Positions 9,794 to 26,882 of a stretch of 64,000 nt of DNA are shown in pieces. The DNA is from Gammaproteobacteria bacterium. GTDB lineage: Bacteria > Pseudomonadota > Gammaproteobacteria > Acidiferrobacterales > Sulfurifustaceae. The stretch spans positions 124,001 to 188,000 of the forward strand of contig JACQFZ010000022.1 in assembly GCA_016199745.1 (NCBI GenBank), written 5' to 3'. The notes beneath the pieces are model-generated. The model was not told the origin of the DNA and did no database searches. It worked only from the letters and a program-made list of their open reading frames with translations. The first letter of the stretch is position 1; every line of letters starts with the position of its first letter. A program made the position numbers and the translations under genes.

Positions 9794-12298
9794 TTATTTC
9801 ACGCGCATGCCCGGCTGCGCGCCGCTATCCGGCGAAAGAATGAATAAGCCGGGTGTTTTGCCGTCGGCGTCGGAGGCGGCCAGTACCATGCCTTCCGACA
9901 ATCCAAACTTCATTTTGCGTGGTGCGAGATTGGCGACCATGACCGTCAGCCGGCCGATCAGCGTTGCCGGGTCATAGGCCGACTTGATGCCGGCGAACAC
10001 CGTGCGCGGTGTCGCTTCGCCGATATCGAGTGTGAGCTTCAATAATTTCTCGGCGCCTTCGACGTGCTCGGCGTTGGCGATCTTGGCGATGCGCAGATCG
10101 ATTTTGGCGAAGTCGTCAATGGAAATATTTTTACTCCCCGCTCCCTCCGGGAGAGGGGTAGGGGGTGAGGGAGATTGCTGCATAGGTAAGCGTTCCTCAA
10201 GTTTGTTCCAGATAGATTCAAGCACGGCTTGTGTGTTTCCAAGTACGTCGTTGTTCCAAAAACGCAAAACATATATTCCGACGCCTTCGAGCGCGCTCGT
10301 GCGGGTTTCGTCATGTTGCGTCTGCTCTTGGTGTTGTCCGCCGTCGGCTTCAATCGCGAGCTTCGCCTCGCTGCAATAGAAGTCGACAACAAATCGTTGC
10401 CCGTCAACTTCGATCGGATGCTGTCTTCTGAACTTTGCATCGTGTAATCGCCGATCGCGCAGCAACAACCAAAGAAACGTTTCGGCGTCGGGTTGTTGAT
10501 CACGTAGTTTGCGGGCAACTTCCAGCAGGTCGGCGGGCAGCGGCTTTTTCCGTGCCTGCTTTCCCTCACCCCCAGCCCCTCTCCCGGAGGGAGAGGGGGG
10601 TTGGAGGCTTTCCCTATTTGCAGAAATCAACGCTTCGATTTGTTTGGCGTCGACACGAGTCAGCAGGTGTTGATAGTCGCGAATCGAATGTCCAGTCGCA
10701 AGCAGCGATTTTGCGTCGTCCCACTTCAGTGGAGCGATATTGAGGAATTTTTCGACTCGTTCTGCGGTTATTGGTAGTACGGGTTTTAGATAAAGCGTAA
10801 GCAATCGGAAGAGATTGAGCGCAACCGAGCAAACGAGGTGTAGCTTTTCTTCTTGCCCAGGTTGTTTCGCCAGTTCCCACGGTTTGTGTTTGTCGACGAA
10901 CTGGTTAGCCACGTCGGTCAAGGCCATTACTTCACGGAGCGCTTTGCCGTAATCGCGAGAGTCGTAGTAGTTGGCGATGGCGCTGCCCCTATCCTGAAAC
11001 TCGGCGATGATGGAGTCGTCGCCAGTCCCAAATATTTCCGAGCCAAATGCGAAAATTCTTGGCGGGAGTTTCAGTACCCCGTTAAAACGCTTCGATACGA
11101 AGCCGGCGCAGCGACTGGCGATGTTGATGTACTTGCCAACTAGATCGCTGTTCACGCGCGCGACGAAGTCGTCGAAACTTAAATCGATGTCCTCCACCGT
11201 GCCGTTCAACTTAGCGGCGTAGTAGTAGCGCAGCCATTCCGGATTGAGGCCGAGCGTCAGGTAGCTCTCGGCATTGATAAAAGTGCCGCGGCTCTTCGAC
11301 ATCTTTTCGCCGTTGACCGTGAGATAGCCGTGTACGCATAGCTTGGTCGGCGTGCGGTAACCGGCGTGCTGCAACATTGCCGGCCAAAACAACGCGTGGA
11401 AGTTAAGAATATCTTTGCCGATGAAGTGATAGAGCTCGGTCGTCGCGTCCTTCTGCCAGAACGCATCGAAGTCGAGGTCACGTTTAGCGCACAGATTCTT
11501 GAACGACGCCATGTAACCGACCGGCGCATCGAGCCAGACGTAGAAGTACTTACCGGGGTGACCCGGGATCTCGAACCCGAAGTAGGGCGGATCGCGCGAG
11601 ATATCCCAGTCTTGCAAGCCCGACTTCAACCATTCATCCATTTTGTTAGCGGCTTCCGGCTGCAACGTGCCGGAGCGGGTCCACTGACGCAGGAATTCGC
11701 CGCAGCGCGGATCGGACAGCTTGAAGAAGAAGTGCTCGGATTGGCGTCGTTCCGGTTTGGCGCCGGAGACGACCGAATACGGATTTTTCAGATCGGTCGG
11801 CGAGTAGGTCGCGCCGCAGACTTCGCAGTTGTCGCCGTACTGATCTTTGGCGCCGCACTTCGGGCATTCGCCTTTGATATAGCGGTCCGGCAGGAACATC
11901 TGTTTGATCGGGTCGTAAAAGTTTTCGACCGAGCGGCGCGCGATCAAGTCGGCAGCGTCGAGGCTTTTATAGATGGCTTCGCTATACGCGCGCGTTTCGT
12001 CGGAGTGTGTCGAGTAGTAGTTGTCGAAGTCGACGTGAAAGCCGGCGAGGTCGCGGGTGTGCTCTCGCCAGAAACGGGCGATTAATTGCTCGGGCGTGAT
12101 TCCTTCTTTCTCGGCGCGCAGCATGATCGGCGTGCCGTGGGTGTCGTCGGCGCAAACGTAGTAGATCTCGTGCCCCTGCATTTTCTGAAAGCGCACCCAA
12201 ATATCGGTCTGGATGTATTCGACCAAATGGCCGAGATGGATCGCGCCGTTGGCGTAGGGCAGGGCGGCGGTGACGAGAATGCGGCGTTTATCAGGCAT
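9794..12298 (-). CDS. metG: Methionyl-tRNA synthetase with inserted DUF559 domain
   Basis: 834 residues from the ATG at 12298 ([18 protein letters not shown]), against about 680 for family members. Class I signatures are present: HLGH near residue 20, the zinc knuckle [18 protein letters not shown], and KMSKSRGT. The anticodon-binding domain follows, and the C-terminal tRNA-binding (EMAP-like) domain starts at [14 protein letters not shown]. Between them, at residues about 566-722, lies an in-frame foreign segment: a DUF559 domain bordered by translated palindromic repeats ([14 protein letters not shown] and [16 protein letters not shown]). The linker it interrupts is normally short and variable, so aminoacylation is probably preserved. 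The gene is essential and divergent from apbC. Confidence 0.95.
10134..10174. repeat. Left inverted copy flanking DUF559 cassette
   Basis: CTCCCTCCGGGAGAGGGGTAGGGGGTGAGGG-type repeat. Its reverse complement matches the right copy at 10562-10602 over about 32 positions with few differences. Confidence 0.85.
10562..10602. repeat. Right inverted copy flanking DUF559 cassette
   Basis: CCCTCACCCCCAGCCCCTCTCCCGGAGGG-type repeat in the orientation opposite to the copy at 10134-10174. Together the pair acts as terminal inverted repeats around the DUF559 coding segment. Confidence 0.85.
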
Positions 12299-15093: not shown

Positions 15094-16560
15094 CTACAGC
15101 GTTTTCAAATATTCGAGCAGCGCGTCCTTTTCCTTCGTCGGTAAGAACACACCATACTCGTGCCCCTGATTGCCGCTGGCGCGCTCGTGTACGTCGAACT
15201 TGCTGCCGACGCGTTGTGCTTCGACACTGTCGATAACGAAACCGACGTTCGCCGGATCGTACAGATCGTAGCCGCGATAAAAGATCTTGGGCCGTTCGGC
15301 GACCGGCTTCAGTAAGTCGCGTAACGTCGGCACCGAGCCGTTGTGCAGGTACGGTGCCCGCAGCCAGATGCCGTCGAGGAAGGCGGCGACGTAGCCGCTC
15401 GGCTCGTTCTCGACCAGGCCTTTGCGTTGGATGCCGAAGTTGCTGACGACACGATTGGCTTCAATCGCGGCGGCCTTGCTCCATGTGGCGAGACGCTCAC
15501 GATCGGTGCCGACTTCTTCAACCGGAATGCGCGTGCCGGTGCGGTCGCTCTCGTGGCAGCGGACGCAATACCCTTCGTACACGGCGCGGCCGGCCTTCAG
15601 CTTGGCTTGATCGATCGGAAACGGATACGGCGGTGCTTTGATCTCGCCGAGATATTTTTCCAGCCAGGCGACATGACCGAGGAAATCGTCCGTGTCATGC
15701 GGTTTGGCACCGAGCAGGCCGAGTGCCGAATCGATGATGACCGAGCGCGCATCGTGGCTGTCGCCGCCGAAATTCATGAGATTGCCTTGCTCCGGCCGGT
15801 ACTTCTTCAGGTTCCACACCGACGGCATGTCGGTCGGGCCGATGGAGTTATCCATCGGCACGTTGATCATGAAGTACTTGGTGAGATTGAAGGCGTCGTC
15901 GCGCCCACGACCCCATTCGGGAAAGTCTTTACGGTAGATCCAAGCGAATTGCTTTTCGCGTTCGAGCAATTGCTTTTTCGTGATCGGAATGAGGACAAAA
16001 CGGTAAATCGTTTTGTCGAGCCACGATAACTCGGTGACTAAATTGATTTCGCGCATCAGCGAGTCGGCGTTGAAGCGCGGATCCTTGGCGCAATCGACCA
16101 AGAAGCGGAAGAATGCTTCGAGGTTGAGCGTGTGATTCGGACCGGCGACGACGAAAGTTGGGTTCTCGTCGGCATTCTTGCGATAGCTCGTGGTATGGCA
16201 AGCGGCGCAGTTATTGGCGACGCGCGGGAAGCCGATGACTTTTTTGGTGAAGCCGACCGGCAACTCCTGACCTTGCTCCCAGGCAACGCCAAACGAGGCG
16301 TAACCGCCGGGGCCGGGCAACTTGTCCGGGAACATGCGCGGCAATACGTAGAAAATCCAGTACGGAATGCCGGCGTCGTACTCGGCGCCGATGGAACCGT
16401 ACTTAAAGCGCATCTCCGACGTTGCCGTCACCCAGTCCGGCTGTGGTTCGGCGCGGAAGAACTTGTACCAGCCGACGTAGCCGCCGATGGCGCCGAGGAT
16501 CAGCAGCACGGTCAAGGCAGCGACAAATTTTCGTTTGTTTGATGATTTTTTCGTGTTCAT
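15094..16560 (-). CDS. RoxA-like diheme cytochrome c
   Basis: 488 residues. A basic N-terminus and one membrane segment (about 10-30) anchor or export the protein. Two haem-binding motifs are visible: CAACH near residue 117 and CVRCH near 325. Shared with RoxA/MauG-like diheme oxygenases and peroxidases are the DMPSVWN segment, the late LRAPYLHNGSVPTLRDLL and the ending of the type KDALLEYLKTL. It is the most downstream of four cytochromes on this strand. It probably acts in the periplasm on an oxidised organic substrate or hydrogen peroxide. The exact reaction is unknown; rubber cleavage is not implied. Confidence 0.75.
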   Translation of the reverse strand: MNTKKSSNKRKFVAALTVLLILGAIGGYVGWYKFFRAEPQPDWVTATSEMRFKYGSIGAEYDAGIPYWIFYVLPRMFPDKLPGPGGYASFGVAWEQGQELPVGFTKKVIGFPRVANNCAACHTTSYRKNADENPTFVVAGPNHTLNLEAFFRFLVDCAKDPRFNADSLMREINLVTELSWLDKTIYRFVLIPITKKQLLEREKQFAWIYRKDFPEWGRGRDDAFNLTKYFMINVPMDNSIGPTDMPSVWNLKKYRPEQGNLMNFGGDSHDARSVIIDSALGLLGAKPHDTDDFLGHVAWLEKYLGEIKAPPYPFPIDQAKLKAGRAVYEGYCVRCHESDRTGTRIPVEEVGTDRERLATWSKAAAIEANRVVSNFGIQRKGLVENEPSGYVAAFLDGIWLRAPYLHNGSVPTLRDLLKPVAERPKIFYRGYDLYDPANVGFVIDSVEAQRVGSKFDVHERASGNQGHEYGVFLPTKEKDALLEYLKTL

Positions 16561-16585
16561 GTTTTTCTCCTTCCACTTTCTATTT

Positions 16586-16675
16586 CCCCTCTCCCTCCGG
16601 GAGAGGGGAAGGGGTGAGGGACGTACCGATCCGTTACATCCCTCACCCCATCCCTCTCCCGGAGGGAGAGGGGGA
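16586..16675. repeat. Inverted pair of palindromic repeats, 17-bp spacer
   Basis: Copy A (16586-16621, CCCTCTCCCTCCGGGAGAGG then GGGGTGAGGG) and copy B (16639-16675, CCCTCACCCC then CCCTCTCCCGGAGGGAGAGG) stand in the same mutual orientation as the repeats around the DUF559 cassette in metG. Only about 17 bp lie between them. The pair occupies the gap between two cytochrome genes. Confidence 0.85.
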
Positions 16676-16697
16676 GTAGGTTCGCTGATGCGATTTG

Positions 16698-18209
16698 TTA
16701 GAACGTCTTCATGTATTCGACGATCGCGTCTTTGTCGGCCGGCGGCAGCGACGTGCCGTAGGCTTTGCCTTCATGGCCTAGATTGCCGTTGCTCGGCAGA
16801 CTCGTGTCGTAACGGAAATATTTGCGGCCTTTCTCTTCGGCGAGCGTGCTGACGAAGCCGACTTTGATCGGATCGTACAGATCGTTGCCGCGATAGAACA
16901 CGCGCGGTCGTCGCCACGACACTTCGAGTAGATCGCGCAGTGTCGGCACCGAGCCGTTGTGCAGGTACGGCCCACGCAGCCAAATGCCGTCGAGCGGCAT
17001 GTTGGTGTAGCCGTAGGTCTTGCGGAAGTTTTGGAAACGCCACGGGTAACCGGCGTAGAGCGTGCCCTGGTTGACCGCGAGCTCGTAGGTATACGAATCC
17101 AAACGGCCGCGATCGGTGCCGATCTCGGCGATCGGCGTCACCTGGCCGACCTTATCGCCGGTGAAGTCCTGACCGTTTGCGCCGTGGCAACTTACGCAAT
17201 ATTGCTTGTACAGCGCCGCGCCGCGGCCGGCGAGATCTTTATTAATGGGATACGGATACGGCGGCGCTTTGACATCGCGCATCCATTCTTCCAGACGGCC
17301 GATGGCATCGATGTCGAGCGTCGCCGGCGTCGTACCGGTGCCGAAGGCAGCGCTTTTGTTACGCTCTTCAACTTTGGTGTTGTTGCCGTCCCAATGTAAC
17401 TGCATGCCTTGGCGCGATCGCTGATTCCAAACCGATGGGAAATCCGCGGCACCGTGCAGCTCGTGCTCCGGTAACCGATCGAGCGGAATGTTGAACAGGA
17501 TCTTGGCAGCGTTGAACGTGTCGACCCGTCCTGGGCCCCACTCGACGCCGTTGAGCGTGATGTTGAGTCGGCCTTTCAGCATCAACAAGCGTTCGCGCAT
17601 CAGGCCGATGGCGACCGGATAAACGACGTAACGATCGAACGCATTGAGCCCACCGGCCAGTCGCTCGACCTCCGGTACGATGTATTCGGCACGGAAGCGT
17701 TCGTCGGCGGCGCAGTTGAACATGAACCGTTCGAACGCCATGAGGTCGAGCCGCGCGGCCGGCATACCGAGGTACACGCGCGGCTCGGCGTCGGGTTTGT
17801 CACGCACGGTGCTGTGATGGCATACGGCACAGTTGAGAAATACGCGGTCGATGCCCAAGTGGCGGCGTTGCATGACACCGATCGGCAAATCTTTGCCCGG
17901 CTCGTACACCAGGCCGAACGCTTCGTAGCTGCGCGGTGCGCCGTTATCGGGCAGGTGCGAGGCGCACACTTGCGGCAACGCCCGCCAGATCCAGTAGGGA
18001 AAACCGGATTCGCGTTCGCCGCCGGTTGAGCCGTATTTGAAATGGTCTTCGATATTGGCGTATGTGACTGGTCGGTCAGGCAGGAAACGAGCGGCGAGAT
18101 AGATCAGCGGTACGAGAACGATGATGAGCACAAGCGCGAGCAGAGTCAGAAAACGCCGCCGCCACGGTGCGATCGGGCGGTCGGAGGGAAACTTGATGCG
18201 CTTGTTCAT
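16698..18209 (-). CDS. RoxA-like diheme cytochrome c
   Basis: 503 residues from the ATG at 18209, which is preceded by GGAGA; an upstream GC-rich frame is non-coding. It has a basic start, one membrane segment (about 20-42) and two haem motifs, CAVCH near residue 130 and CVSCH near 340. It is clearly paralogous to the cytochrome at 15094-16560: both have the GFPYW/GIPYW block, ADFPSVWNQ with HWDGNN, LRGPYLHNGSVPTLRDLL and an acidic-lysine end. The HWDGNN block resembles the distal haem pocket of RoxA/MauG-like enzymes. A periplasmic oxidoreductase is inferred; the substrate is unknown. Confidence 0.77.
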   Translation of the reverse strand: MNKRIKFPSDRPIAPWRRRFLTLLALVLIIVLVPLIYLAARFLPDRPVTYANIEDHFKYGSTGGERESGFPYWIWRALPQVCASHLPDNGAPRSYEAFGLVYEPGKDLPIGVMQRRHLGIDRVFLNCAVCHHSTVRDKPDAEPRVYLGMPAARLDLMAFERFMFNCAADERFRAEYIVPEVERLAGGLNAFDRYVVYPVAIGLMRERLLMLKGRLNITLNGVEWGPGRVDTFNAAKILFNIPLDRLPEHELHGAADFPSVWNQRSRQGMQLHWDGNNTKVEERNKSAAFGTGTTPATLDIDAIGRLEEWMRDVKAPPYPYPINKDLAGRGAALYKQYCVSCHGANGQDFTGDKVGQVTPIAEIGTDRGRLDSYTYELAVNQGTLYAGYPWRFQNFRKTYGYTNMPLDGIWLRGPYLHNGSVPTLRDLLEVSWRRPRVFYRGNDLYDPIKVGFVSTLAEEKGRKYFRYDTSLPSNGNLGHEGKAYGTSLPPADKDAIVEYMKTF

Positions 18210-18257
18210 GCTTTTTCTCCAGGTAAACAATTTGTGCACAGCACGTGCCACTCCCGT

Positions 18258-18352
18258 CCTCCCCCTCAAGGGGAGGGACTGAGGGTGGGGGTGGGTTACG
18301 CTGCTGTTACCAAACCTACCCCCACCCTAGCCCTCCCCCTGAGGGGGAGGGG
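18258..18352. repeat. Inverted pair of CCTCCCCC-type repeats
   Basis: Copy A (18258-18297, CCTCCCCCTCAAGGGGAGGG then GGGTGGGGGTGGG) and copy B (18314-18352, ACCCCCACCC then CCCTCCCCCTGAGGGGGAGG) are inverted around about 16 bp. This is a sister type of the CCCTCTCCC repeat, again at a gene junction in the cytochrome cluster. Confidence 0.8.
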
Positions 18353-18354
18353 AC

Positions 18355-20247
18355 TCAGTGCAACGTTTCATTGGTGGTGCATGGCCTAAGCGTTTCGTAA
18401 TCGGTTAGCGTCATTTGTTCGACACTGGGCACCGCACCTTGATCGGCGCGCAGCAGCTGAGCGACATAGTTGTTGATTGCCGCAAAGTCTTCGCTCGCGC
18501 TCCAATGTTCCGGCGCCAGTCGCAAACGATCCAACGCCGTGCGCGGCGGCATCGGCGTTTTCGGCCGGGTCGATGCAGCGAGTTGCCACATGTTCAGGCG
18601 AAAATAAATACGCGCGGCGCAGTGGCGGATGTTGGCCGCCACTTGCTCGGCGTTGCCGTAGAGAAAGTTCGGTGGCGAGCGCTCGTGGGTTTGATGGCAA
18701 CTGGCGCAATACGGATAGAACCGTTTCACTTCGCGACTCATCTGCGCGATGTCCGCCGCGGCGTCGATACCGACGTCGTCGGTTTGAGCGGTAGGCAACG
18801 CCAAGTCACTCTGGCAGCACGGGCGATAATCGACGCCTAAGCGAGCGAGCAATGCCGGCACAACGATTAGGCGTCGGAAGGGTTTTTCGGTGAGCGCGTC
18901 CGTGGCGTCGTTCTCCGTGGCGGTGATGAGCTGATCGATCGCTTGCGCGATCGCCGTGGCATCGCTAAACGGGTTGTCGTCGAGCGCCTGCCATTGTATG
19001 CGTAAACCGTTTAGCCGTCGCCGCAACCGACGCACGTCGGCTTCGGCGAGAAACGCCGCCAGCTCAATCACTGCCTGTTTGGCGAAATCGATTTGCGCCG
19101 GTCGCCATATGGCGATCGGCGGGCGCGGCAACAACGGCTCAAACCGCGCCGCTACATGTGCCAGCGGCAGGCCCGCCGGCAACTCGGCGTCGCGATACGG
19201 CCGTTGCAACGGATCGCGGTTGGGGATGTCGGGGTCGGCGATGGCAAGGCCGTAGGTCCAGCGCAAAGCGGCGTTCTGGCGTATCAGCGGTGCCGCCGCG
19301 CGCCAGCGGTCGGTATCGGCATCGAATCCGCGCCCGTCGTTTAGGCGGTACTGCAACGCCGCTTGCAACAGCGCCGCGCGGCAACGAATCGCCCGCGTTG
19401 GTTCGGCGTCACAGCCCTCGCTCCAAAGTTTTTGCGCGGCGGCGTAGCGATTGGCGCGGTCGGTGGCGTCGTCGATGGCGTTCGGTATGTCGACGCCGCG
19501 ATCGATATCGATGCCGTAGAAATCTCGATGTTGCTCGTGCAAACGCGCGGCGACAGCGGTGTTGGCATTGGTCTCGTCCCACAGCGGCCGCGAGAAGATT
19601 GGCGCCTGATTTTGATGACAGCTGGTGCAGATGCGGCGGTTGGCGTAGACCAGGCGCGGCCTGCCGCCGGCGCGGTAATCTTTCACCAATTGGAATTCGA
19701 AGCGGCCGGCCGTTTCGTTATAGCTAATGACTTCGATCAGCTCGGCGTGTTCGTGATAGCCAAGATAGAGCCGGTCTTTCAGCAGCGGTCGCAGTAGATC
19801 GCTGTTCAACGGCTCGCCGGTTACCGCCACCACGACTCGCGGATAGGTAAAGAAGTCCGGTGCAGCGGTAGTGCGCTGCAGCGATCGCCCGAGCGGGATC
19901 AATACGGCTTTGAGACAAGACGAGGCGCTCGAAATCGCCGCCGGCCGACAGCCGGTTTTATTTTCGATGCGCTTGAGCAGAGCGCTGAGCGGGAACGGAA
20001 TGTCGTAGGCCGATTGGCGATCGACGTTGTTGCTGGCGATAACATCGAACAGCGAGCGCCCGGCCGGCGGCAGATCGGTGCCGGCGATGTGCGGTACAAC
20101 GGCCCACGTCGGTAACGGTGTGCTATCGGTAGCGGATGCTGGTGGCACTGGTTTGGCGAAATAGCGCACGACAATAGTCGCTCCAATGGCGATCGCGGCG
20201 ACGGCAATAATGCCGATCCAGTACGTTCGTTGGATGCTTCCTTTCAT
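18355..20247 (-). CDS. Large diheme cytochrome c, 630 residues
   Basis: 630 residues with an N-terminal membrane segment (about 8-28) that may be an uncleaved anchor. The two haem motifs are CTSCH near residue 210, in CTSCHQNQAPIFSRPLWDE, and CASCH near 525, in YCASCHQTHERSPPNFLYG. The RPLWDETNAN context is seen in uncharacterised periplasmic cytochromes of other proteobacteria and myxobacteria. It differs from the RoxA-like paralogues beside it and lacks their C-terminal HNGSVPTL block. The stop abuts a palindromic repeat. It probably donates or accepts electrons in the periplasm together with its neighbours. Confidence 0.7.
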   Translation of the reverse strand: MKGSIQRTYWIGIIAVAAIAIGATIVVRYFAKPVPPASATDSTPLPTWAVVPHIAGTDLPPAGRSLFDVIASNNVDRQSAYDIPFPLSALLKRIENKTGCRPAAISSASSCLKAVLIPLGRSLQRTTAAPDFFTYPRVVVAVTGEPLNSDLLRPLLKDRLYLGYHEHAELIEVISYNETAGRFEFQLVKDYRAGGRPRLVYANRRICTSCHQNQAPIFSRPLWDETNANTAVAARLHEQHRDFYGIDIDRGVDIPNAIDDATDRANRYAAAQKLWSEGCDAEPTRAIRCRAALLQAALQYRLNDGRGFDADTDRWRAAAPLIRQNAALRWTYGLAIADPDIPNRDPLQRPYRDAELPAGLPLAHVAARFEPLLPRPPIAIWRPAQIDFAKQAVIELAAFLAEADVRRLRRRLNGLRIQWQALDDNPFSDATAIAQAIDQLITATENDATDALTEKPFRRLIVVPALLARLGVDYRPCCQSDLALPTAQTDDVGIDAAADIAQMSREVKRFYPYCASCHQTHERSPPNFLYGNAEQVAANIRHCAARIYFRLNMWQLAASTRPKTPMPPRTALDRLRLAPEHWSASEDFAAINNYVAQLLRADQGAVPSVEQMTLTDYETLRPCTTNETLH

Positions 20248-20276
20248 TTAGCGGAAGCTCCGCTGCACCGATCTGG

Positions 20277-20304
20277 CGTCATCCCCACGCAGATGGGGAT
20301 GACG
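20277..20304. repeat. CGTCATCCCCA hairpin
   Basis: CGTCATCCCCA and TGGGGATGACG form a perfect 11-bp stem with a six-base loop between the lipoprotein and 630-residue cytochrome genes. Its sequence differs from the CCCTC-type palindromes. It could be a terminator or another short dispersed repeat. Confidence 0.55.
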
Positions 20305-20358
20305 TTGGTCATTCGCCGCTCACCCAATCCTCGATGAGGAGGGCGGCACAAATCGACG

Positions 20359-21228
20359 TTACTTCGCGGCGACGGTCGCCCGCTGCGTGCCGCGCCAGCA
20401 ATCCTCCGCCACTTGTCCGGATTTCGCGAACGCCGGACCGTCGCGATCGGCGATTTCTTTGTTATACAGCGTGAAGTTCAACAAGAACACTTTGCCGGCG
20501 TAAGCGCGGCCGAGATAGAAACCGGGATGGATCATGCGGATCTCGTCGCGGATCATGAGGCCGTGACGACCGGCGAGAAAATCCGGGCGCTCGCGGTAGC
20601 CGGGTAACTCTTCACTGTAGGCGTAGTCGATGATGATCGACTCGCGGCGTGCGTCGAGCAGGCTTTGACCGCAGTAAAGCTTGGCCGGGAACAACAGCCA
20701 CGCGGTCTTACCGTTGACTGTGATCGTGTCGAGCGTACTGGTATCGCCCTGAATCAGCGGTTTGATTAGCGTCAGATCGTCGATGCGGTTACGCAGCAAG
20801 CGATCGTTGCGGTAGAACACCTTGCCCTTCCATAGCGTGCGGCCGATGGTTTCGAGTTTGCTCGCTTTGAATTCAACGACCCGACCGGCGATGCCGCCGA
20901 TGATTTCGGTCAAGCGGCGCTCGCCGCTGGTACCTTTCGGAAAGAACAAGTTACCGTCGAACGCGCCGTCCGGAATCGGTCCGGCGGTTAGGCGCGCGTA
21001 GATTTGATCAACCTGTTCTTGATCGAGCACGGCGAGATTCTCGGGGGTGATCTTCTCGAGATCTTTCAGCGACAGCGGGTATTGATGTTCGATTTCGGCG
21101 AAGTCGGGTTTTGCGGAGTAACCGTCGCCGTAGGGCGCAAAGGCGATATCGAGTTTCTCATGGCGGTTGCAGGCGCCGACAGCGGCAACGGCGAGGGTGA
21201 CGGTCAATACAGCCATGCGTGTTTTCAC
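20359..21228 (-). CDS. Lipoprotein in cytochrome cluster
   Basis: 289 residues. The N-terminus MKTRMAVLTVTLAVAAVGAC carries a lipobox with the acylated Cys at 20, so the mature protein is membrane-tethered. The rest is soluble and contains no CxxCH. A stretch YPLSLKDLEKITPENLAVLDQE is followed by a mixed alpha/beta region with several conserved-looking aromatics. I do not recognise the family. It lies between two cytochrome genes on the same strand and could be an accessory or assembly protein for them. Confidence 0.7.
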   Translation of the reverse strand: MKTRMAVLTVTLAVAAVGACNRHEKLDIAFAPYGDGYSAKPDFAEIEHQYPLSLKDLEKITPENLAVLDQEQVDQIYARLTAGPIPDGAFDGNLFFPKGTSGERRLTEIIGGIAGRVVEFKASKLETIGRTLWKGKVFYRNDRLLRNRIDDLTLIKPLIQGDTSTLDTITVNGKTAWLLFPAKLYCGQSLLDARRESIIIDYAYSEELPGYRERPDFLAGRHGLMIRDEIRMIHPGFYLGRAYAGKVFLLNFTLYNKEIADRDGPAFAKSGQVAEDCWRGTQRATVAAK

Positions 21229-21259
21229 GATGGATCTCCTAAATAGCTGGGCAATACAT

Positions 21260-21374
21260 CCCTCCCCTTCAGGGGGAGGGACCGAGGGTGGGGGTGGGTT
21301 GGGGCTTTGCTTAGGCTCGGCCCCCTTCGTTTGAACCCATCCCCACCCTTTACCCTCCCCCTGAGGGGGAGGGG
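21260..21374. repeat. Inverted pair of CCTCCCC-type repeats
   Basis: Copy A (21260-21300, CCTCCCCTTCAGGGGGAGGG then GGGTGGGGGTGGG) and copy B (21335-21374, CCCATCCCCACCC then CCCTCCCCCTGAGGGGGAGG) are inverted around about 34 bp, between the lipoprotein gene and the largest cytochrome gene. Confidence 0.8.
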
Positions 21375-21394
21375 ACGTCGGAGGAAAATCATTT

Positions 21395-23908
21395 TTATAG
21401 AGTTGCGAGAAAGGCGGTCAGCGCCTTCTTATCGGCGTCGGGCAGATCTTGCCCGAAGGTGTGGCCGCCGTTCTCGATGGTGTCGGTGCAACTGCTGTAA
21501 ATCTCCAGCAACTTGTGCTCGCGCTTAATGATGTCGACCAACTTAGTTGGATTCTTCATTACTTCGTTGGCGGTACGCTGTAGCAACGCGGTTAGCTCTT
21601 TGCCTTCCTTGTCGCCGTATTGTTGTACCAACTGTGTCTGCAGCTCCGCTGGGCGCAACCGCGCGATCACGAGATCGCCGATGAAACGTTTGTGTAGGAA
21701 GTTGCCGAGGCCGCTGGCCTTAGTGCCGGCCGGAATCGTCAGCGTCAGGCCGAGCAGCTCGCGCTCGGCGTCGCCGTCCCACAGTTTCGGTCCGAAGGCG
21801 ATGTTTACTTCTTCGTTGAATAGCGTCGCCTTGGTTTTGCGTGCTTGCGGGTTCAGCAATTGATGCATCGATTCCTTATATAGCTTGAAACGGCCGTCGA
21901 CGCTCGGATCGTAGGCCCAGCATGCCGGCTGTTGATTTGGCGGCAGCATCTTGCCGTCGGCGTCGATATAACGCGGCCGATCGAAATCGTTCGCCTTGTT
22001 CGCCGGCTTGCCACAGATTTCCGGACCCATGGCGTTGTTGTGCATCAATGGCGCGTGTGCCCAAACACTCAGTAACGAGATGTTGCGGTAGTAGCCGCGA
22101 CCGCCGCTGGCGTCCTCGCGCACGTTCGGATCAGATGGTCGCGCCCGCAATGTTTCCGAGCCGTACTCTTGATAAATGTGGCCGGTCATGTGGTTCGCAT
22201 GCAGCGCGCGGCAACGGTAAGTGCCGACTTCGCTGACTTTGGTGGCGCCGTCGTTACCCATCCAATCGGCGCGCAGACCGGTTTGCGGATCGAGCGCGCG
22301 GAAATCGCGATTCTTGAACGGACCGCCGACATTTTCCGGAATGCTCGAATGGCAACGCGCACAGTTCTGCGCGAACACGTCGTGGCCGCGGCCGACGGCA
22401 CCTTTGCCGAATTCTTTTTCGAGATCGGCGACCAGGTCGTCGTAACCGTAGTTGGCGCCGGCGTTGCGTTGCTTGCGTTCGTTTTTGCGGGCGACGAACA
22501 AGTCGGTGGCGTTGTTCTCCTTTGACATCAGGAAGCTGACGATGTTGGGCAGCCGATCTTCGATCGCGCGAAAGTTCGGGCAATCACGGCGGCACTGACC
22601 AATGTTGAACGGCGTTTGGCCGAAGTTGCGCGCCTGCGGGTCGAGCTGACGCAGATCGGTGAGATGGTTCACCCAGCACTGCTCGGAGCACGAGCCAATA
22701 TTAAAGTAGACGCGTTGCACCGCTTCCGGCGCACCGATGCTGTCTTCGCCGCCTTTGAGGATGTGGTTTACCGCTTCTTCTCTTTCGCCACGTTGCCAGC
22801 ACTTGTTGTCGCGGCCGGGTTCGCACCAGCAGCTGCCGGCCGGCGCATCCTTGGCGCATAACTGCACTTTGCGCCACTTAATAACTTTCTCGTTGGCGAA
22901 GATCGGCCGTTGTTTGAGATTGATAATGGCGTTGATCGTGCCCGGGTTGTTCGTTTGGTCGCTGGGGATCGCCGAGGTGTCGGTCGTGCCCGGACGCGCG
23001 TGCGCGAACATTTGCCATTCGAGACTGTTGGTCGGCATGCCGGAGCCGAGCAACTCCGACACACGGATATATTGATTGCCGATGCCGCCCTTCAAATTTT
23101 CCCACTTCGGCTGGGACGGGTTTTTGGGCGGATTGAGCGGATCGAACGAGATGTGACACAGGCCGCATGCTTGACCTATTAAGAACGGCGGCTCGACCGA
23201 GTCGTCGCTTGTCTGACTCAGTTTCCCGCCGGGGCTTTGCCGCGGTAAGCGCTGGCGCCAGCCGTTCCAACTGGCGAAGCTGCCGTTCAGTTTCTTCCAG
23301 GTCGCGGCGTTGAAGCGCGGGTTCGGGAATTTGCGCAGGCCGAGAACGCCGGTCGAGGTGCCGAAAGCGAGATCGCACGCCGATTGCCGTTGATCTTTCG
23401 GCCCATGGGTATCGCTTAGATCGACGGCGGTGTCGGTCAGGCTGCACGCCGGATCGCGATAGCCTTCTTTGCCGACGAACTTCAGCAGCTCTTCGTCGCC
23501 CGGACACCATTCGAGACCGTAGGTCTGGTCGAGGCTCTTCGCCGGACAGCCGGGTTTGCCGGGTATACAGCACGACGGATCATTCATCGTGCCCCAGGCG
23601 CGGAAGCGATCATCGCGCTCGCCGGCATTCAGCACACGATACCAATCGATATAAACGCCGAGTCGCTGCGGCATCGTGTACGAATGAAAGCGGGCATTGC
23701 CGGCGGTCGCTTTGTACCAGATTTCGCGGCCGACGCGTTCGGAATCGTTCAGACCATTAGCACCGGCATAAAAGCCACGCTCGTCATAACCGGCGGCGGA
23801 GCCGGCGCCGTTGGCGGTGATTGAGTCGGCGTTAGCGGAGGGGGCGATGATGGCGGCGAAGATGGATAACGCAGCGCCTAAGACGGCAGTGTAATAGGCA
23901 GGCTTCAT
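21395..23908 (-). CDS. Very large RoxA-like cytochrome c
   Basis: 837 residues from the ATG at 23908, which has GGGAGGGACC just upstream and gives a signal peptide ending SANA. Haem motifs are CGLCH near residue 270 and CARCH near 540. Extra cysteines in the first half (CCIPGKPGC, CWCEPG, CSEQCW, CRRDC) suggest disulfides. The segment LLSVWAHAPLMHNNAMGP and the C-terminal NGGHTFGQDLPDADKKAL are typical of RoxA-type proteins, though this protein is longer than RoxA (about 680 residues). It is the first gene of the run and probably the most upstream member of the transcription unit. Confidence 0.75.
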   Translation of the reverse strand: MKPAYYTAVLGAALSIFAAIIAPSANADSITANGAGSAAGYDERGFYAGANGLNDSERVGREIWYKATAGNARFHSYTMPQRLGVYIDWYRVLNAGERDDRFRAWGTMNDPSCCIPGKPGCPAKSLDQTYGLEWCPGDEELLKFVGKEGYRDPACSLTDTAVDLSDTHGPKDQRQSACDLAFGTSTGVLGLRKFPNPRFNAATWKKLNGSFASWNGWRQRLPRQSPGGKLSQTSDDSVEPPFLIGQACGLCHISFDPLNPPKNPSQPKWENLKGGIGNQYIRVSELLGSGMPTNSLEWQMFAHARPGTTDTSAIPSDQTNNPGTINAIINLKQRPIFANEKVIKWRKVQLCAKDAPAGSCWCEPGRDNKCWQRGEREEAVNHILKGGEDSIGAPEAVQRVYFNIGSCSEQCWVNHLTDLRQLDPQARNFGQTPFNIGQCRRDCPNFRAIEDRLPNIVSFLMSKENNATDLFVARKNERKQRNAGANYGYDDLVADLEKEFGKGAVGRGHDVFAQNCARCHSSIPENVGGPFKNRDFRALDPQTGLRADWMGNDGATKVSEVGTYRCRALHANHMTGHIYQEYGSETLRARPSDPNVREDASGGRGYYRNISLLSVWAHAPLMHNNAMGPEICGKPANKANDFDRPRYIDADGKMLPPNQQPACWAYDPSVDGRFKLYKESMHQLLNPQARKTKATLFNEEVNIAFGPKLWDGDAERELLGLTLTIPAGTKASGLGNFLHKRFIGDLVIARLRPAELQTQLVQQYGDKEGKELTALLQRTANEVMKNPTKLVDIIKREHKLLEIYSSCTDTIENGGHTFGQDLPDADKKALTAFLATL

Positions 23909-24373
23909 GGTCCCTCCCTGTTCGCGATGAGTTCGAATCCGTACGTCCTGGGTCCTGTGAGTATGGACGTCCAATGTCCGCGGTGAATGTATTAGAAAAA
24001 ATTAGCCCCCGCAATAAGTCTGAGGACTAGCCAAAAAGTCGAGTTGCAAGGTCGGCGGGAGTAGTAGCTAGGGCGTGTCACCAATTAAACCAACCAAACC
24101 CAAATAGCCGCACAATAAATACCCGCCAGGAAGTTCCGCGCCGGTCGATGCTTTCACGCTGAGTTCTTCCCATGAATTGATAGGGCCGCATTCGATCGAT
24201 ACAAGCGTGCCCTTGCTCTCCCTCCCTAGGTAGCGTGGTGCGCGTTATCCCGCACTTGCTTTTGGCCCAGCTTTGCTTAACGCCGAGCAACCAAGCAGAA
24301 CTAATTTGTGATGGCATCCCGGTAGAATTCGCTGTAGCAAAATTGTCACGACGCTTACTAACGGCAGATGCGA
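23909..24373. other. Non-coding 465-bp region
   Basis: The stretch between the start of the large cytochrome gene and the terminator of the next lipoprotein gene must contain the cytochrome promoter. Short open frames on both strands here (for example 24078-24317 minus) have no recognisable domain and atypical composition, and the region is visibly less GC-rich than its surroundings. A decayed gene is possible, but I could not identify one. Confidence 0.4.
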
Positions 24374-24404
24374 CAAAAAAAAGCCCCGTCCTTGCGGACG
24401 GGGC
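24374..24404 (-). terminator. Rho-independent terminator
   Basis: On the minus strand GCCCCGTCC-GCAA-GGACGGGGC, a perfect 9-bp stem, is followed by eight T residues. It lies 30 bp after the stop of the 815-residue lipoprotein gene. Confidence 0.93.
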
Positions 24405-24434
24405 AAATCGCTCAGGGGAGGAACAACTCTTTAA

Positions 24435-26882
24435 CTACTGCAATACACCGCCGATGACCGCCGGAGCATCGGTCACATCGGGCTTTTGAGCTAAGGTGTG
24501 GCTTACGGTACCGATATCCGCCGATGTCGGCAGCGTGAGTGTGCTGTCGGTGAACAGATCGCCGGCGGCGAGACCCGCGTTGCTGCAGGCGGAGACGTCA
24601 GCGCTATTGCTCGTGTTCGACAGCAGCATGCTCTGCTCCATCTCGATGGCCTTCACGATGTAGTCCCTGGTGCCGTCGTTGATGATCACGCCGTCCTTGA
24701 GGGTGATCGCCGTGTGCCAGCGGTTCGCATTGTTCGAATCCTGGATCCACGGGAAGCCGAACAGCTGACCCTCGCCTTCGTACTGCAGCAAGAACTTCTT
24801 GCCCTCGTACGCGACCGCCGTGGCATCGCTCGGATTGCGGTTGTCGCCGGTCGCGAAGGTGTAGGTGAAGTGCAGTGGCTTGTCGAAGGTCGCGAACGTG
24901 CCGTCTGATACCTTCTGCACCGTCACCATCTGGTTCCAGTTGTTGGAGCCGGTTTCCCAGTGATACGACGAGCTGGCGCCGTACACTTCCCACGGATTCG
25001 ACACGGCCGTGGTCACCATCTCGTTGGTGTTGATGCCCCAGCTATGCCCAAGTGAGCTGATGTCGAGCGCGCTGAAGTCGACGACGTTGCCGAGATGATC
25101 CTTCACCAGCAGCTTGCCGCTGCTCACATATGCCTTGTAGGCATACGAATCGCCCGGGTTGGTTATGTCAGCGTAATACAGATCATTTTCGCTGGTCAGT
25201 CCGGCGATCGTCGTCAAGCCGCCCTTTAAGCAACGTTGATAGCAGTAGAGCGTGACTTGCGTCGAGCTATCGGAGCCGAAGATCGAATCGCTCGGCGACA
25301 CGAACTCCTGCGCGTAGAACGTCACCGTCGAGTCGCCGCCGAGGTAGTTCACCGATCCACCCAACGCATCGGACCAGAGCCCGATCATCATGTGGCTCGC
25401 GGGCGTGACATCCACCGGCGTGCCCAGATCCTCGCTGCTCGGACCGGTGTCGCCGAAGGTAACGCTACCCGTCGCAACGAACTTGTTGGCGCCGAAGCCG
25501 TAGGCGTTGGTGGTATCGACGACGACGACGTACTGACCGAACGTGGCGTAGTTGTCGAGCGATCCCCAGTAGAACATCTCCTCACCCGCCATCTCGGCCA
25601 AGGTCAAGGTGTTAGCGGTACGCTTGACGAGCTTGCCCGGCGCAACGTTCACCGTGTAGTTCGTGGTGGTGTCGCTGCTGAAGTCCATCTGCGAGATGGT
25701 CGTGCCATCCGGCAGTGTCCCGCCTTCGTACCACACGCCCCAATAGCCGACGTGACCGAACTTGCCGTTATACGTGAACGGAAAGCCCGAGTTGAGTGTC
25801 ACGCTTGCACCCGTCGCCGCGTTGTACACGTTGTAGCGCCACACCTGGGTGTTGAAGTCGGTGCGGCTCAAGCAACGTTGCGCCTCCGGGCTGTTGTCGT
25901 TGTTGGTGTCCTTCGCGCGCATCATTAACGATGCGTTGAAGTCGACCGCGAAGTTCTTGGTCTCGGTCACGACGCCCATCGGTCCCGGTCCGTCGAAGTC
26001 GCCGGTCTCGCTGCGCATCGCGCGGGCGTGGCCGGAAGTGCCGGAAGCGTCATCGAGGATGACGTTCGCCGCTTCCTTCGAGCCAAACGCCAGATTCTGG
26101 CCCGGTAACAACTCGCCGCCGTTGAGCATGATGAATTTAAACTGCGGCTTGTCGTCGGCGTTGTCGACGGTTTGCAGCGTTCCGTTCATCATCTCGACGA
26201 GCGTTCCGCTTTCGGCGCCGCCTTGCAGCACGCCGCTGTCGATCACCCCTTTGAAGTTCAGCACGAAGCTACCGTACGGCTTGGTCGCGCTGGTGCCTTC
26301 GGTGATGGTGATTTGGGCGAGGATCGTCGAGGCGTCTTCAGGGTTGGCGCTGTCAGCGCCAGGCACCCAGACTTTCACGATTTGCGGTGCATCAGCACTC
26401 GCACGTGTCGATAACACAGTCCACGTTTCGTAGCTGGTCGTCGTGCCGGTGCTTGACTGTCCGGTCGAGCCGGAGCTGCTTTGGTTCTGGCCTTGCCGGC
26501 ACTTGTTCTCGTCGACCAGTGCGATGTAGGCGCCTTGGTTCACCATCTCATCAGTCTTGAGCTGGCCGAAATAGCACAGGATTTCGTTGACCGTCGACAG
26601 CGAGTCCATCGATTCGTCCCAGACGTAGACGTGCTGCTCGTCGCTCGCGTACTCGCCGCTCGGCAGCGGATCCTGCACCGCCCGCGCGGTCGTGCTGCGC
26701 ATGCCGCGCAAATGCGATGAGCTGTCTTCGTCCTGCGCTGTGACGACGCTCATCGTGCTGGCGATCTGCAGGCCGCTAACGGAATCGCTCGATTCGCTGC
26801 TGCTGCTGCCGCTGTGGTTACAGGCGGCCAACCCGGCTGCAAGCACGGGGTATAGCCACCATTGCTTAGGTACTCGATTCAT
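24435..26882 (-). CDS. Large lipoprotein of unknown function
   Basis: 815 residues. The start MNRVPKQWWLYPVLAAGLAAC has a lipobox with Cys at 21, followed by a Ser-rich spacer (HSGSSSSESSDS) as in surface-exposed lipoproteins. The body is acidic and rich in Thr, Gly and aromatics, with few Lys, as in beta-rich secreted proteins. A second low-complexity Gln/Ser/Thr stretch lies near residues 135-150. No catalytic motif is recognised. The gene is monocistronic: a clear terminator follows, and a divergent ECF sigma gene lies 307 bp upstream. It might be a target of that sigma factor, which is only an inference. Confidence 0.75.
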   Translation of the reverse strand: MNRVPKQWWLYPVLAAGLAACNHSGSSSSESSDSVSGLQIASTMSVVTAQDEDSSSHLRGMRSTTARAVQDPLPSGEYASDEQHVYVWDESMDSLSTVNEILCYFGQLKTDEMVNQGAYIALVDENKCRQGQNQSSSGSTGQSSTGTTTSYETWTVLSTRASADAPQIVKVWVPGADSANPEDASTILAQITITEGTSATKPYGSFVLNFKGVIDSGVLQGGAESGTLVEMMNGTLQTVDNADDKPQFKFIMLNGGELLPGQNLAFGSKEAANVILDDASGTSGHARAMRSETGDFDGPGPMGVVTETKNFAVDFNASLMMRAKDTNNDNSPEAQRCLSRTDFNTQVWRYNVYNAATGASVTLNSGFPFTYNGKFGHVGYWGVWYEGGTLPDGTTISQMDFSSDTTTNYTVNVAPGKLVKRTANTLTLAEMAGEEMFYWGSLDNYATFGQYVVVVDTTNAYGFGANKFVATGSVTFGDTGPSSEDLGTPVDVTPASHMMIGLWSDALGGSVNYLGGDSTVTFYAQEFVSPSDSIFGSDSSTQVTLYCYQRCLKGGLTTIAGLTSENDLYYADITNPGDSYAYKAYVSSGKLLVKDHLGNVVDFSALDISSLGHSWGINTNEMVTTAVSNPWEVYGASSSYHWETGSNNWNQMVTVQKVSDGTFATFDKPLHFTYTFATGDNRNPSDATAVAYEGKKFLLQYEGEGQLFGFPWIQDSNNANRWHTAITLKDGVIINDGTRDYIVKAIEMEQSMLLSNTSNSADVSACSNAGLAAGDLFTDSTLTLPTSADIGTVSHTLAQKPDVTDAPAVIGGVLQ

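Follow-up and report, generated by a model that had tools for sequence, protein, structure and literature searches.

Palindromic repeats placed face to face, with no gene between them, raise the question of which element they belong to and which enzyme, if any, carries them. In the window analysed here, i.e., a stretch of 64,000 nucleotides of contig JACQFZ010000022.1 from a gammaproteobacterial assembly (GCA_016199745.1), such a pair is found at 16586-16675. A sequence-only reading had described it as the cassette-free counterpart of the inverted repeats that flank a DUF559 gene lodged within metG, and had likened the two forms to REP/BIME elements and their RAYT transposases. The question reaches beyond this locus: for many palindromic repeats of bacteria no mover is known, among them the CGTC REPs, which lack a known transposase according to PMC3733652. 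We consider it probable that the pair is a gene-less, non-autonomous member of a hairpin-ended family whose autonomous form carries DUF559 between the same arms. Our best reading of the whole is a two-part system similar to that of REPs and RAYTs and built on an EDxHD nuclease, in which the association of repeat and gene is observed and the mobilisation by DUF559 is inferred.

The cassette-free pair and the metG cassette

As had been claimed, the sequence of 16586-16675 reads as a hairpin repeat in two facing copies with 17 bp between, each arm being made of a C/T-rich hairpin on its outer side and an unpaired head, CCCTCACCCC, on its inner side (Table 1). The mutual orientation of the arms is indeed that of the metG cassette, and the two inverted pairs of a sister repeat announced further along the window are real; both belong to the same repeat subfamily as the flanks of a second DUF559 gene of the genome (L003). 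In the window, CCTCTCCCGGAGGGAGAGG occurs 9 times with up to three mismatches, against 0.01 expected, and CCTCACCCC 5 times, against 0.31 expected. No Rfam family matches the window between 9000 and 24500. The pairs lie in a minus-strand gene cluster (15094-26882) that includes two tandem RoxA-like cytochrome paralogues, and three of its gaps contain facing repeat pairs.

Table 1. Arms, genes and repeat pairs located in the window
Feature	Position	Strand	Description
metG open frame, 883 aa	9794..12445	-	tRNA-synt_1g - anticodon domain - cassette - tRNA_bind
Left arm, DUF559 cassette within metG	10133..10172	-
DUF559 (PF04480) nuclease domain, in frame within metG	10199..10525	-	E=3.5e-36
Right arm, DUF559 cassette within metG	10562..10601	+
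Left arm, cassette-free pair	16586..16621	-	hairpin outer, head GGGGTGAGGGA inward
17-bp spacer	16622..16638	.	position of the DUF559 gene in full cassettes
Right arm, cassette-free pair	16639..16675	+	head TCCCTCACCCC inward, hairpin CCCTCTCCCGGAGGGAGAGGG outer
Sister-subfamily facing pair, cassette-free	18258..18352	.	CCCACCCCCACCC head, CCTCCCCCTGAGGGGGAGG hairpin, as around DUF559 gene L003
Second sister-subfamily facing pair, cassette-free	21260..21374	.

The arms of the metG cassette are 90% complementary over 40 nt and the metG frame, whose start is a mechanical ORF start (the true start is undetermined), stays open through both of them, the cassette being placed between the anticodon and tRNA-binding domains. 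The insert consists of the arms and a 109-aa DUF559, and Pfam found no intein splicing-domain ends in it. The search for the cassette covered 31 genomes (the source and 30 relatives) and found it in just two, G000 and G011; metG of the same-genus G001 shows a plain linker at its position. The linker was read in 11 of 25 loci, both cassette carriers among them.

Repeats and DUF559 genes across the source genome

The 19-mer pattern of the repeat gave 112 + 108 = 220 matches in the whole genome (up to three mismatches), and the reversed pattern gave none. In a 749.6-kb sample of this genome, 28 pairs of neighbouring hairpins lie less than 700 bp apart, of which 16 are inward-facing and 3 outward-facing, 2 are '<<', 1 is '>>' and 6 have one headless arm. 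Most inward pairs keep 41-70 bp between their hairpins, with visibly different interiors; this distance is 416 bp at the metG cassette and, on C28, a DUF559 gene occupies a 375-bp gap adjoining an inward pair. All four DUF559 genes of the genome lie between facing arms, with flank alignment scores of 32-39.5, while the maximum at 400 random places was 22.5. Arm subtypes differ from one cassette to another: the head is CCCTCACCCC at metG and CCCACCCCCACCC at L003, and L001 (which has three arms) and L002 share CCCTCTCCCC heads with different hairpins. In the arms read, the repeat end carries no GTAG tag, the head being CCCTCACCCC or a variant of it. As in a REPtron, the gene is flanked by palindromic repeats that face each other and belong to its particular subfamily, and pairs without a gene occur at other places. 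The idea that full copies always flank DUF559 genes fails, most pairs being gene-less, as with REPs and RAYTs.

Some outward double hairpins with a GTTTTA-containing linker (G000:C22:328056, C48:31340 and C48:138427) look like another small repeat type. In addition, 3 of the 16 pairs (G000:C22:20951, C22:71213 and C48:294729) lie within an outer inverted repeat, perfect over 20 nt in one case. This exceeds the 99% control and may reflect insertion into existing hairpins, for instance terminators, although the cases are few.

The DUF559 protein

Seven residues are invariant in 62 aligned DUF559 domains (E15, D48, E59, D61, H65, D72 and R88), of which E15, D48, H65 and D72 correspond to the catalytic E, D, H, D set in a Vsr-like fold (Foldseek, 3r3p). 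The assignment of residues to the EDxHD motif is in part our own assumption. The structure model (pLDDT 91) matched NGO0050 of Neisseria gonorrhoeae (PDB 3hrl) with an E-value of 1e-7 and the homing endonuclease I-Bth0305I (PDB 3r3p) with an E-value of 2e-4 (TM 0.68/0.75). Sequence profiles return the same two proteins (E 5.6e-5 for I-Bth0305I); PDB matches to the A1 profile at E>=0.03 were taken as chance. As judged from these profiles and from a predicted structure, DUF559 resembles the Vsr-like EDxHD homing endonucleases. EDxHD is named as a homing endonuclease family in PMC3943268; PMC1189080 counts YcjD among the known PD-(D/E)XK proteins, with a profile that detects Vsr.

Neither NGO0050 nor E. 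coli YcjD, both members of the DUF559 family, is linked to repeats in the literature covered, which was only partly available. Among titles and abstract openings, none ties DUF559, COG2852, ycjD or Vsr-like nucleases to repeats, which is weak evidence of novelty since subscription journals are mostly uncovered. The terms RAYT, DUF559, nuclease and transposase are all absent from PMC12306157.

The link between DUF559 and the arms in other genomes

The sequence-only reading stood or fell with a genome-wide association between repeats and DUF559 genes. This association is present, not only at the four genes of the source genome but also elsewhere, and it extends to copy number. We assembled a class sample of 110 DUF559 loci from 369 genomes (E up to ~2e-23; a few truncated genes and neighbouring duplicates included), one of which was dropped at a contig edge. 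The facing-arm score reached at least 21 in 76/109 loci and at least 18 in 84/109. The former threshold was attained by 1/674 tiles of the source genome and by 12.5% of 1983 mismatched left-right partners, a rate raised by the occurrence of the same arm types at unrelated cassettes. In direct orientation, 47/109 loci scored at least 21, which is no clean control, hairpins being palindromic. Arms of the strict C-rich pattern were found on both sides at 34/110 DUF559 loci, 0/1310 tiles and 0/28 Y1-transposase loci. In a second set made of the best 80 of 562 DUF559 loci from named genomes (one dropped), among them Xanthomonas, Pseudomonas, Acinetobacter, Anaerolineales, Hymenobacter and a Rickettsiales genome, 58/79 loci scored at least 21, compared with 1/67 when the flanks were taken at a distance of 1.5 kb and with 24.8% when the partners were mismatched.

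The number of repeats follows the gene as well. Among the 369 genomes, 36 combine a strong DUF559 hit with five or more hairpins of a single pattern, 28 have the hairpins only, 37 DUF559 only and 268 neither (odds ratio 9.3). Within families, hairpins are more numerous in DUF559 carriers in 27 families and less numerous in 6, with 5 ties (within-family permutation test, p=5e-5). Head types also cluster on the DUF559 tree (51 changes versus 66 when shuffled; none of 200 shuffles was as low), as co-evolution would predict, but the DUF559 tree is poorly resolved.

Several observations count against a family driven by DUF559. A strong DUF559 is lacking in those 28 of the 64 genomes with at least five hairpins, and three of them (G301, G122 and G077) reach 56-78 hairpins; in G006, a single-contig assembly that is 99% complete, 17 hairpins occur without any DUF559 hit. 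Among the class loci, 33/109 score below 21, and neither the Azospirillum loci nor the two ycjD loci of E. coli have a matched left arm. Some cassettes are also ancient and passed on by descent, with shared flanks in the Xanthomonadaceae, Acinetobacter and Azospirillum. We discarded the six Azospirillum loci as independent insertions: they are orthologous, i.e., a single site, with weak arms. In phages, DUF559 at E<=1e-8 is found in only 2/50,697 records.

One could then suppose that the repeats form an independent family (terminators or REP-like, with another mover) and that DUF559 is a homing endonuclease gene for which the facing pair serves as insertion site. The fold shared with EDxHD homing endonucleases, the excess of gene-less pairs over cassettes and the repeat-rich genomes without DUF559 would all suit this explanation. 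We nevertheless hold it to be rather unlikely: two-armed cassettes interrupt genes whose homologues have no repeat, as the metG of G001, each cassette of one genome has its own arm subfamily, and a passenger gene would not cause repeat number to track DUF559 within families.

Empty sites and signs of mobility

The two RoxA-like genes that surround 16586 are also neighbours in G010, G018 and G017 (G001 has no orthologue of the gene pair), and the hairpin pair is absent from their short junctions in all three relatives. The pair at 16586-16675 is thus lineage-specific. It shares with MITE-type elements the short terminal inverted repeats, the lack of a gene and the absence from the orthologous site. 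No target-site duplication was detected at 16 pairs of the source genome, where the mean longest direct match is 5.25, against 5.28 in the control, a further point against a family driven by DUF559.

E. coli, whose DUF559 gene is ycjD (present in K-12), provides a second case. At least 80% of a sapF-ycjD-fabI query was found in 3362/5426 E. coli genomes. By the strict pattern, strain KE47 has 11 arms. An insert of 154 bp beside soxR in this strain contains a facing pair, one arm of which is degenerate, and comes with a direct duplication of 24 bp; in two other strains the insert is absent and the 24-mer is present once. The insert allele is present in 156/5426 genomes, and 118UI has both the insert and ycjD. 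In E. coli, the cassette-free pair is a rare, strain-specific insertion, the duplication being documented in one case. The soxR insert lies within a terminator-like palindrome. Part of the E. coli copies may be the known 'box C' repeats. The ycjD locus was rejected as an empty site, which is not clean, as strains without ycjD have eefRABCD there, and the differences at gntP-fimH and gldA-yijF were rejected as insertions for their messy junctions.

In-frame insertion in host genes

The Pfam scan covered 15 long open frames from the class sample (P0001 and 14 others), with a host family in 13, as well as L083 and 23 named loci, 21 of these named loci having one; L131 was outside the scan. The host names used here are our reading of the Pfam domains. 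Host domains were found on both sides of DUF559 at 12 loci or more: in MetG (L004, L083, L325, L329, L339), ValRS (L292), a LeuRS-type synthetase (L349), PriA (L324), HrpA-like proteins (L307 and L293, with the cassette at different places), MetH (L299) and HsdR (L161). Four loci (L002, L112, L167, L178) look like terminal fusions and not internal inserts. In the five genomes with a DUF559 cassette in metG (that of the window, L083, L325, L329, L339), the insert invariably separates the tRNA-binding domain from the catalytic/anticodon part, which may reflect common descent or a favoured site of insertion. In the HsdM frames of L141 and L167, extra gene-less single arms appear to be translated in frame (PSPPGRGAG-type peptides).

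DNA methylase and restriction families are strikingly frequent among the hosts (L110, L141, L145, L149, L154, L161, L167, L174 and L179; also L284, L286-L290, L311 and L323), with 9/14 in-frame class loci and 7/23 named loci, or 8 if DUF1156, which we take to belong with them, is counted. These hosts and the long-term vertical conservation seen in some genera could point to a function of DUF559 in defence or repair, as a Vsr-like nuclease or one that works with restriction-modification, the hairpins being expression signals or recombination hot spots. Such a role appears improbable to us as the explanation, because it accounts neither for facing arms of matched subtype and gene-less pairs of the same geometry, nor for in-frame insertion in tRNA synthetases, PriA and MetH, nor for the correlation with repeat number.

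Y1 transposases

Y1 loci (8 of the source genome and 20 of the class) have GGGTCAGA-type TIRs in several cases and GTAG repeats at some of those of the source genome. The source-genome Y1 genes (L226-L233) have their own GGGTCAGAC-type TIRs or GTAG-tagged hairpins, and at least two repeat systems therefore coexist. That RAYT/TIRYT (Y1, HUH) transposases move the present repeats, as is proposed for GTAG REPs and for the TIRs of motif GGGGWSAS described at Y1 genes (PMC3733652), can hardly be maintained and is already mostly refuted: the heads GGGGTGAG and GGGGAGAG resemble that motif and Y1 genes occur in 50/64 genomes with at least five hairpins, but C-rich hairpin arms are found at 0/8 own and 0/20 class Y1 loci, and the presence of Y1 hardly predicts hairpins (odds ratio 2.1 vs 9.3 for DUF559).

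A putative mechanism and its implications

We observed that the arms are common to both forms, that DUF559 lies between matching arms in many phyla, that repeat number tracks DUF559, and that gene-less copies, matched subtypes and a lineage-specific pair at 16586 exist. No movement driven by DUF559 has been shown, which counts against the two-part system that we favour, and the following steps are inferred. The DUF559 nuclease would recognise the arm, i.e., hairpin plus head, and cut DNA at the arm or at the target; repair or replication would then copy the two arms to new places, either together with the gene or alone. Gene-less pairs would be parasites of the enzyme, or relics from it, like the supposed relation of REPINs to RAYTs. 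Within genes, only insertions that keep arms and gene open in the host frame would survive, which would explain why metG and other genes contain nuclease domains in frame.

More tentatively, these cassettes might constitute an unrecognised class of mobile elements, hairpin-ended, with a single EDxHD (Vsr-like) nuclease of ~110 aa and no intron, intein or transposase, spreading gene-less pairs and settling in frame in essential genes. Its hosts would be MetG, ValRS, a LeuRS-type synthetase, PriA, an HrpA-like helicase, MetH and HsdS/M/R, in-frame settling being possible because the element ends can be translated along with the host gene; ycjD and the CCCTCACCC repeats of E. coli would be its living or fossil example. 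If DUF559 moves repeats, a second, chemically different engine exists for REP-like repeats across several phyla, and a role is found for a family of proteins whose function is unknown. The nuclease domains read in frame within essential proteins, perhaps annotated as fusions, would then be mobile-element insertions. The presence of ycjD in E. coli K-12 makes the idea open to easy bench testing.

Comparison with known systems

DUF559 is close in fold and sequence to I-Bth0305I, a homing endonuclease of phages that has an additional region for DNA binding (PMC3943268), but DUF559 cassettes have hairpin arms and show neither intron nor intein. Rickettsia palindromic elements and CGTC REPs share with them palindromic repeats within genes, according to PMC3733652; the DUF559 repeat differs by the absence of a CGTC tag and by its associated nuclease gene. 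TIRtrons, described in the same paper, also combine inverted repeats around a small gene, a G-rich motif and gene-less repeat families, but their gene is Y1, and several Y1 loci that we examined have the motif GGGGTCAG and not GGGGTGAG.

The closest organisation is that of REP/BIME/REPIN repeats and their RAYTs (REPtrons), with short hairpins ending in a conserved unpaired part, facing pairs, a mostly intergenic position and many gene-less copies, beside which one copy or a few bear a gene between repeats of the matching subfamily. The likeness drawn by the sequence-only reading thus stands for the organisation and not for the enzyme: the cassette gene is no Y1 (HUH) tyrosine transposase but PF04480, with an EDxHD/Vsr-like fold, and the Y1 genes of the genome have other repeats. 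Unlike REPtrons, the DUF559 element carries no GTAG tag and is frequently inserted in frame in essential genes.
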